In this document: piece by piece, positions 42,443-44,821 of the stretch
How the letters are laid out: the number at the start of each line of letters is the position of its first letter
Position numbering within the stretch: the stretch's first letter is position 1
Notes under the pieces: model-generated
Database searches by the model: none
Seen by the model: the letters and a program-made list of their open reading frames with translations, nothing else
Told to the model about the DNA's origin: nothing
Position numbers and translations under genes: made by a program
From: Meiothermus sp. Pnk-1
GTDB taxonomy: Bacteria > Deinococcota > Deinococci > Deinococcales > Thermaceae
Direction of reading: 5' to 3'
Assembly (NCBI RefSeq): GCF_003226535.1
Contig: NZ_QKOB01000001.1
Location: 372,001-436,000, forward strand
DNA length: 64,000 bases

Positions 42443-44821
42443 CTACCGGCCCAGCTTTTTCGCCACCAACTCCTGCACGAGCTGCGGGTTGGCCCGCCCC
42501 TGGGTTGCGCGCATCACCTGGCCTACGAAGAAGCCCATCAGCCCGGTTTTTCCGCTTCGATACGCCGCCACCTTGTCGGGGTACTCAGCCATCAGGCGCT
42601 CCAGGATCGGCTCGAGCGCCCCTGCCTCAGAAACCTGGCGTAGGCCTTTGGCTTCGACGATCTCTACCGGGTCGGCCCCGCTCTGCTGGGCCTCGGCCAG
42701 CACATCCTTGGCGATGCGGGTGTTGATGGTGCCGTCCTCGAGCAAGCGCACCAACCTCGCTAGGGCAGCCGGGGCAATCCGGATCCGCTCCTCGCGGATG
42801 GGCGCGCCCAGGTCGTTGACTACCCAACTGGCCAGCGCCGAAACCTCGCCATGCCGGGCGGCTTCGGACAGGTAAGCCGCGAGCTTTTCGTCGCGGGCCA
42901 GCACCAGGGCTTCGGCCTCCCCCACGCCCTGGGATTTGAGGCGCTCGAGCCTGTCCTGCTGCTCGGCGGTGAGGTCCGGCAGCTCTTTCTGGCCTTCGGC
43001 GCTTGGCGCTTGGCGCCGGGCGTCTGGCGTCTTGCGTTTTGCGTCTGGCGTCTTGCGTTCAGCCTCTTTGCCCCAGGTGTCCTTCAGGGTCACGATGCGG
43101 TTGAACACCAGCGCCTCGGGCCTCGAGTCCACCGGGTCGCGCCAGAAATAGCCGCTGCGCTCGAACTGGTAGCGGGTGTCGGCGGGGTCGCCCGCTATGC
43201 TGGGCTCGACGTAGCCGTGGGTGACCTCGAGGCTACGCGGGTTGACAAAGCGGAGGAAATCCCGGTCTTCGTGGGTTTCCTCTTCCTCCTCCTGCTCCTT
43301 GGCCTCGGCTTCGGGGTGGGGCACGCTGAAGAGCCGGTCGTAGAGCCGGAACTCTGCCGGCAGGGCGCGTGAGGCGCTGACCCAGTGGATCACCCCCTTG
43401 GCGCTGGCGCCCTCGTCCAGCAGTGTGCAGCGCAGTTCGACGACCTCTCCGGTTTCGCTGGTGATGAAACGCTCGCAGCGGATGACCCCCGCGCCGCGCA
43501 GCCGCACCGTCCCGCCGTGGGTAAGCCGCTTGAAGCCAGGGGGCGGATCCACGGCGAAATCATCTTGCTCGATGTAGAGCTCGCGGGTAAAAGGTACGGG
43601 CCGGGTGGCCTCCTCGGGCCTGACCCGCCGCCCGCCGGGCAGGGCCACCAGGCCGTCGGGCGACTCCTGCACTACGTCGTGAGGCCAGTAGGCCAGGTGC
43701 AGGGTCTGCTCGTAACCCTCGGGCAGGTTCTCCAGCACCACCTTCAGGGGGCGAGCCACGGCCATCACCCGCGGGGCACGGTGGTTGAGGTCGTCACGGA
43801 TAGCGTGCTCGAGCAGACCGATGTCCACGGTGCGGTTGGTACGCGAGATGCCCACCTGCGAGGCAAAGCTGCGGATGGCCTCGGGGGTCACGCCCCGGCG
43901 GCGCTGCCCGGCCAGGGTGGGCATGCGCGGGTCGTCCCAGCCGCGCACGTAGCCACCTGCGACGAGCTTCTTCAGCTTGCGCTTGGAGACCACGGTGTAC
44001 TCGAGGCTGCGCCGCCCGAACTCGTACTGGTGAGGGCGTGGAGTCTTGTCCAGAGGGGGGTGACCCCAGAGGTGGTCCATCAGCCAGTCGTAGATGGCCC
44101 GGTTGTCCACGAACTCTAAAGAGCACAGGCTGTGGGTCACGCCGTCGAGGGCGTCGGAGGTGGCTTGGGCAAAATCGTAGGAGGGGTAGATGCACCACTT
44201 CCTGCCGGTGCGGTAATGCTCGGCGTGGACGATGCGGTAAAGCACCGGGTCGCGCAGCTTCATGTTGGGGCTCGAAAGGTCGATCTTGGCCCTGAGCACG
44301 TGGGCCCCATTGGGGAACTCCCCCGCGCGCATGCGCTCGAAGAGCTCGAGGTTCTCCTCCACGCTGCGCTCGCGGTAGGGGCTGGGCGTGCCGGGCTTGT
44401 CCACACTGCCGCGCAGCCGGGCCATCTCCTCGGGGGAAACGCTGTCTACGTAGGCCTTGCCCATCTTGATGAGGCGAACGGCCATCTCGTAGAGCTGTTC
44501 GAAGTAGTCCGAGGCGAAGCTGATCCGGTCCCACTCCCAGCCCAGCCAGCGCATATCCTCTACGATCGAGTCCACGTACTCCTGGCTTTCGGTCTCGGGA
44601 TTGGTATCGTCGAAGCGCAGCCGGCACACCCCGCCGTAGTCGTGGGCGAGGCCGAAGTCGATGTAGCTAGCGATGGCGTGGCCCAGGTGGGCGAACCCAT
44701 TGGGCTCGGGGGGAAAGCGGGTTACGATCTGGCTATAGCGCCCGGTTTTGAGGTCATTCTCGATGATCTCGCTGATGAAATTGGGGTTGACCATGCGTTT
44801 TGCGGCTACGGAGGTGCCCAT
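42443..44821 (-). CDS. glnS: Glutaminyl-tRNA synthetase with C-terminal YqeY-like domain
   Basis: About 792 residues from ATG 44821 (start uncertain; 44794 is possible). The class I core has the HIGH motif in [15 protein letters not shown] and the KMSKS-like VVSKRKLKK, then two beta-barrel anticodon domains. After a linker, the last 170 residues (from about [12 protein letters not shown] to the end) form a GatB/YqeY-type tRNA-binding domain, an arrangement known in Deinococcus radiodurans GlnRS. The linker contains a translated 7-bp repeat array (42999-43061). It makes Gln-tRNA-Gln directly. Confidence 0.93.
42999..43061. repeat. Nine tandem 7-bp repeats inside glnS, in frame
   Basis: Nine consecutive heptamers of the GCGnnnn type (GCGCTTG twice, GCGCCGG, GCGTCTG, GCGTCTT, GCGTTTT, GCGTCTG, GCGTCTT, GCGTTCA) cover exactly 63 bp = 21 codons. 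On the coding strand three heptamers make one 21-base unit, giving the heptapeptide repeat [21 protein letters not shown]. The units are the same family as the right arms of the intergenic elements at 39.9 and 60.3 kb. Confidence 0.9.

Follow-up and report, generated by a model that had tools for sequence, protein, structure and literature searches.

A heptamer array within glnS

How does a repeat that is dispersed between genes come to be translated inside an essential enzyme, and is it kept there because it is useful or because it is tolerated? The question is raised by the glnS gene in a 64,000-bp stretch of DNA (hereafter the window; bases 372001-436000 of contig C1 in the 3.51-Mb, 36-contig genome of the hot-spring bacterium studied here, G000). 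The features at this locus are as follows.

42443-44842, minus strand: glnS, 799 amino acids; one uninterrupted open reading frame (ORF) encoding a glutaminyl-tRNA synthetase (GlnRS) core and a C-terminal GatB/YqeY-like tail
42999-43061, minus strand: in-frame array of nine NNN[A/G]CGC heptamers encoding 21 residues (sequence reading, TRF, and recoding test)
43020-43059, minus strand: two near-complete 21-bp higher-order units of three heptamers each, identical across their overlap (TRF, 100% matches)
43062-43068, minus strand: degenerate flanking heptamer AAGAGGC, 5' of the array relative to the gene (sequence reading)
42992-42998, minus strand: degenerate flanking heptamer CGAAGGC, 3' of the array relative to the gene (sequence reading)

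On the coding strand (43061-42999), the array reads TGAACGC AAGACGC CAGACGC AAAACGC AAGACGC CAGACGC CCGGCGC CAAGCGC CAAGCGC; the heptamers, frame, and peptide are exactly those given in an earlier note on this DNA. TRF detected a period of 7 and also a 21-bp unit (1.9 copies, 100% identity, score 80). A separate repeat search reported no direct repeat at this site, despite TRF and direct reading showing one, which we put down to that tool's difficulty with short tandem units that overlap. An inverted repeat was searched for in the array and none was found, and its predicted fold was not significant (z = +0.43).

The glnS product has the core and the C-terminal GatB/YqeY-like domain that define a YqeY-appended GlnRS: Pfam placed tRNA-synt_1c at residues 38-352, anticodon-binding domains at 408-569, and GatB_Yqey at 657-797 (E = 7e-39), and phmmer matched it over 14-790 to D. 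radiodurans GlnRS (2HZ7), which has the same architecture. Alignments to solved GlnRS cores extend as far as residue 589-594, and similarity to GatB-like domains begins at 616; therefore, the array, which corresponds to residues 595-615, fills the interdomain tether, where the earlier note had also placed it. An AlphaFold model of GlnRS from a seven-sequence alignment was poor (mean pLDDT 48), with only residues 623-799 confident.

We then compared the array with 5000 trials in which the glnS peptide was fixed and its codons were redrawn synonymously, with codon shuffling as a second null. Identity at lag 7 was 0.61, against 0.22-0.33 at lags 5, 6, 8, and 9, and this value was never reached under either null (p = 0.0002 for each, the floor of 5000 trials). 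The glnS linkers of Calidithermus roseus (G003; 0.59) and Allomeiothermus silvanus (formerly Meiothermus; 0.54) gave p <= 0.0004, as in the study genome, and that of C. chliarophilus (G002) gave a weak signal (0.39, p = 0.04). Most Meiothermus glnS linkers showed no lag-7 signal in this test; the weak signal in two of them (L039 and L041) hints at other heptamers. The 7-bp periodicity in glnS is a DNA-level signal that is unexplained by the protein sequence.

A dispersed heptamer family

The NNNACGC family of Allomeiothermus/Calidithermus is defined here as NNN[A/G]CGC units at exact 7-bp spacing, at least four consecutively. The glnS array belongs to it, with nine consecutive units and an exact match at C1:415020-415058 to the 25-bp pattern (ACGCNNN)x3-ACGC that was used for genome counts. 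With overlapping matches in one array counted separately, this exact pattern had 125 matches in the study genome (reversed control, 1), 41 in A. silvanus, 1534 in C. chliarophilus, 71 in C. roseus, 16 in one divergent Meiothermus (G011), and 19 in a genome of a fifth genus (G049); 17 of the 18 Meiothermus and all 27 Thermus genomes had none. In C. chliarophilus (4.7 Mb), where the family has exploded, the matches are strand-skewed (1000 forward, 534 reverse), and AGCCGAT-type heptamers are also present.

Two arrays between genes lie close to glnS in the window.

39860-39894, minus strand: intergenic ACGC-family array of five units, CGTACGC AATACGC AAAACGC CAGACGC TAAACGC (sequence reading and array survey)
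39724-39780, plus strand: intergenic sister-family array of ACGT-core heptamers (GTCATAC units); it lies at the opposite end of the dispersed element from the array above (TRF and sequence)

AAAACGC, AAGACGC, and CAGACGC of the glnS array are common intergenic units, and the glnS order CAGACGC AAAACGC AAGACGC recurs exactly at C1:116448-116472. The glnS array had been assigned to the same family as the intergenic arrays of the window, which is correct for 39860-39894, where AAAACGC and CAGACGC occur exactly, but not for 39724-39780 and 60143-60170, which are of the ACGT-core sister family. The dispersed element is a mosaic, in the order ACGT-core heptamers, short palindromes (GGAGCnnGCTCC, GGGGACnnTCCCC), and ACGC-core heptamers. 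The copy at 39715-39900 has 78 matches in the study genome, two copies lie in the window (39724-39894 and about 60143-60330), and many ACGC arrays of this genome are the terminal part of the element. Several assembly contigs (C2, C6, and C9) terminate in it.

The family is present both intergenically and in frame within genes. Our survey of the study genome covered stretches around pattern matches (arrays of at least four units, n = 68); by gene calls from our own codon-usage model, which give approximate genic and intergenic counts, 2 of the 68 arrays, those of glnS and valS, are clearly gene-internal, with same-frame coding on both sides. In a 400-kb sample of C. chliarophilus (84% coding), 43 of 48 arrays were intergenic, two lay at gene edges, and three were nominally internal; these three were not counted, having a non-coding upstream flank or lying antisense. 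Likewise set aside were ORFs of the study genome over arrays at L132, L143, and L153, whose coding score was at or near zero and which look like shadows of opposite-strand genes, and those over arrays at L133 and L157, which are probably N-terminal over-extensions. A reading of the arrays as a functional DNA signal (uptake or chi-like) was dropped, since the arrays avoid genes.

Arrays in other genes

The second gene-internal array of the study genome lies in valS.

L172:1997-2031, minus strand (G000:C9:24096-24130): in-frame valS array KDAIRQTQDAKR, five heptamers (array survey)

It occupies the loop of ValRS that follows the catalytic domain (Pfam, 22-573) and precedes the anticodon-binding domain (618-756); this stretch is shorter by four residues in T. 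thermophilus ValRS (1GAX). In valS (ATACGCCAAACGCAAGACGCAAAACGC), the unit order TATACGC CAAACGC AAGACGC is one that is found again in two intergenic arrays, which favours import of the array over its growth in place. G000-G003 and G011 carry the array; in G004 it is eroded (units keep only the final GC), and the other relatives examined, whose loops vary in length, lack it. In a ValRS tree built without the loop, the five hosts form one clade (support 98/96), so that the simplest reading is a single origin followed by descent with the gene. Between G000 and G011, the array is identical at 27 of 27 nucleotides, against 75% for the whole gene; constraint or transfer was considered on this basis and dropped, as this is only the second-longest identical run in the gene. 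G011 falls inside Meiothermus by GlnRS (L048) and with Allomeiothermus/Calidithermus by ValRS (L193, on a long branch), and its valS may have been horizontally acquired.

A different kind of insert is found in purF. The Meiothermus purL and purF genes share an overlap, GTGATG; directly after GTGA at this point, G000, A. silvanus, and C. chliarophilus carry an inverted array pair (partly eroded in A. silvanus), with the frame kept from GTG. In G000, this insert folds as a hairpin (z = −3.0). The same site carries ACGT-core heptamers in C. roseus, a CTTCATC tandem (x4) in G011, and an AGCC-type insert in G015. The purL/purF overlap (L129:2118-2208, minus strand; L322-L329) is thus a recurrent insertion site with different heptamer families by lineage, and the in-frame inserts after the purF start give PurF a repeat-coded N-terminal extension.

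Four further proteins end in array-coded tails.

L335:1536-2804, minus strand: aconitase-family protein of A. silvanus, array-coded C-terminal tail beyond the Pfam domain
L346:306-1601, plus strand: PLP-dependent TrpB-like enzyme of A. silvanus, array-coded C-terminal tail beyond the Pfam domain
L342:1258-1578, plus strand: SAF-domain protein of A. silvanus, array-coded C-terminal tail beyond the Pfam domain
L180:2096-3157, minus strand: formamidase-family protein of the study genome, array-coded C-terminal tail beyond the Pfam domain

All four tails follow complete domains and are read from the sense strand of the array. The description of the glnS array as a rare case therefore needs qualification: such arrays are uncommon, with few inside genes, but the case is not unique given valS, the PurF N-terminus, and several C-terminal tails. 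It is quite possible, if somewhat short of probable, that the family is a recurring, frame-independent source of protein segments (the GlnRS linker, the ValRS loop, the PurF N-terminal extension, and C-terminal tails), with other heptamer families entering the same purF site in other lineages.

The glnS linker in relatives

In all Allomeiothermus and Calidithermus examined, the glnS linker is built of heptamers. That of C. roseus has seven (ERKTPTA-KRKTPTA-ER) and that of A. silvanus about 6-7, whereas that of C. chliarophilus is a degenerate, eroded array in which the units are largely lost. The prediction that copy number should change in threes is borne out between species: in the two closest glnS genes, compared from one genome each, C. 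roseus is exactly 21 bp (seven residues, three heptamers) shorter than the study genome. The units differ by lineage, being AAGACGC CAGACGC in G000, AAAACGC CAACCGC in C. roseus, and CAAACGC CAAGCGC in A. silvanus. The two 14-bp copies are identical within G000 and within C. roseus, yet three positions, shared by both copies, distinguish one species from the other (GAC to ACC codon, AAG to AAA); the alignments therefore indicate turnover of the 21-bp unit after these species separated.

Outside this clade, the GlnRS linker is unrelated. Core-to-tail linkers are about 25-38 residues long and vary freely in length and sequence across the family; those of Meiothermus are of similar or greater length and unrelated in sequence, partly acidic or Ser/Pro-rich, that of Deinococcus is also unrelated in sequence (in D. 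radiodurans it is likewise low-complexity and variable), and Thermus GlnRS is without the tail and hence without the linker. Conservation of the linker in distant relatives, which would have argued for an ordinary linker, was thus looked for and not found, and at the linker site the array is restricted to Allomeiothermus/Calidithermus. Since the linker does not align with that of Meiothermus, no empty site with a target duplication could be delimited.

The idea of a recent invasion of a single genome does not hold, as the array is common to C. roseus and A. silvanus. In the GlnRS tree, glnS of the study genome (window 42443-44842; compared with L032 and L033) groups with C. roseus (99/97) instead of A. 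silvanus, its congener, and the PurF sequence shares 97% identity with both Calidithermus but 90% with A. silvanus (L322-L324); together, these suggest gene exchange or a genus boundary problem.

Origin and turnover of the array

We consider it likely that the clade-specific intergenic heptamer family entered the tether in an ancestor of Allomeiothermus/Calidithermus and has persisted there as tolerated filler with turnover of the 21-bp unit. The presumably flexible tether joining GlnRS core and tail would have received an NNNACGC array and then kept it, since any stop-free, frame-keeping, hydrophilic sequence would work there. Read in the sense direction, NNNACGC would give NNN-ACG-CNN-NAC-GCN-NNA-CGC, or X-T-(P/Q/L/R/H)-(D/N/H/Y)-A-X-R, a hydrophilic peptide, and because 7 is coprime to 3 the same heptapeptide cycle probably results in all three frames, as deduced from the genetic code and the observed cases. 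The demands on a sense insertion would then be only a total length divisible by three and the lack of stop-containing units; stops would arise only from particular units, such as TAAACGC in one frame. Intergenic arrays often contain such units, and none occurs in frame in that of glnS. The antisense strand would encode hydrophobic peptides of the AFCVWRL type. After entry, slippage or unequal exchange may have added the 21-bp unit or homogenised it in individual lineages; we infer slippage as the turnover mechanism and no adaptive value of the array.

Alternatively, a chance heptamer seed in the glnS linker may have been expanded by slippage in place, with no import, the wider family reflecting the same slippage everywhere. 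The glnS units do differ among G000, C. roseus, and A. silvanus, the 21-bp duplication resembles slippage, and in the literature heptamers are reported to outnumber other long simple repeats in most of the bacterial genomes studied, with polymerase slippage proposed as their cause (PMC4679880). The nine glnS units are also not copied as a block from any single intergenic array. However, exact arrays are missing from nearly all related genomes, and internal ones occur only in the clade with the dispersed family; the order of the higher-order units in valS matches intergenic arrays; and the purF insert is a complete inverted array pair, which slippage alone would not make. We infer import from the distribution of the family and the unit order shared by valS and intergenic arrays, and regard growth in place as unlikely.

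Tolerated or domesticated

The earlier note had left open whether the array is domesticated or tolerated, and the free variation of the linker in length and sequence points to tolerance. Selection on the translated array, for example by tuning the length or charge of the linker for tRNA-Gln binding by the tail, appears quite improbable. Its K/R-rich composition could contact tRNA; in D. radiodurans, the YqeY-like tail reportedly increases the affinity for tRNA-Gln (PMC3927822); and all three species retain the frame. On the other hand, linkers of similar length in Meiothermus are unrelated and partly acidic or Ser/Pro-rich, C. chliarophilus glnS is largely without the units, and retention of the frame needs nothing beyond the essentiality of GlnRS. 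That the linker is an ordinary low-complexity one, whose heptamer pattern is a by-product of codon choice, is hardly credible: linkers are low-complexity and variable in all relatives, D. radiodurans included, but synonymous recoding almost never reaches the observed lag-7 identity (p = 0.0002), and the units are common to hundreds of non-coding copies.

Relation to known repeats and significance

Rickettsia palindromic elements (RPEs) are about 100-150 bp long. They are dispersed and mostly non-coding, and are also found in frame in genes of likely functional proteins (PMC3733652). Both RPEs and the glnS array are read as extra peptide at tolerant sites; however, RPEs are single palindromic elements, whereas the glnS array consists of tandem 7-bp units with no inverted repeat and no significant fold, and thus lacks the RPE-type stem-loop. 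The purF insert does form one, and this inverted array pair with its hairpin is the nearest match to RPEs here.

Intergenic heptamers have been described in Xanthomonas and Nostoc (GGGAATC, GGGGA(T/C)T) and Beggiatoaceae (TAACTGA), and in the portions of these accounts available to us they resemble the present family in being 7-bp units in 2-26 copies, dispersed mainly between genes (PMC4692102, PMC4679880). Their core sequences differ from NNNACGC, and TAACTGA contains stop codons, whereas the NNNACGC sense strand reads through unless particular units occur. The same portions describe no array inside an essential enzyme, and state that repeat units of a multiple-of-three length are likeliest in coding regions (PMC4692102, PMC4679880). 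As in coding VNTRs, the copy number in glnS can shift without a frameshift (three heptamers, 21 bp), and such a frame-keeping step of 21 bp separates G000 from C. roseus; the glnS array differs in its 7-bp unit, in keeping the frame only when units come in multiples of three, and in belonging to a family that is also intergenic. In the open-access subset of the literature, no report of such arrays was found for Meiothermus or its relatives. A 7-bp family residing in essential enzymes through multiples of three units is new beside the known intergenic heptamers.

The glnS and related arrays present a non-coding simple repeat becoming part of essential enzymes, with DNA-level evidence and orthologues in different stages. 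A unit coprime to three that gives the same peptide in every frame would be an unusually forgiving source of linkers and tails, and the natural series within the clade (nine units, seven units, eroded, absent) lends itself to measuring how an insert originates, turns over, and fades. It also carries a warning that annotated N- or C-termini near such arrays may be repeat-derived. Taken in this way, the family would represent an uncommon but recurring route from spacer DNA to protein.
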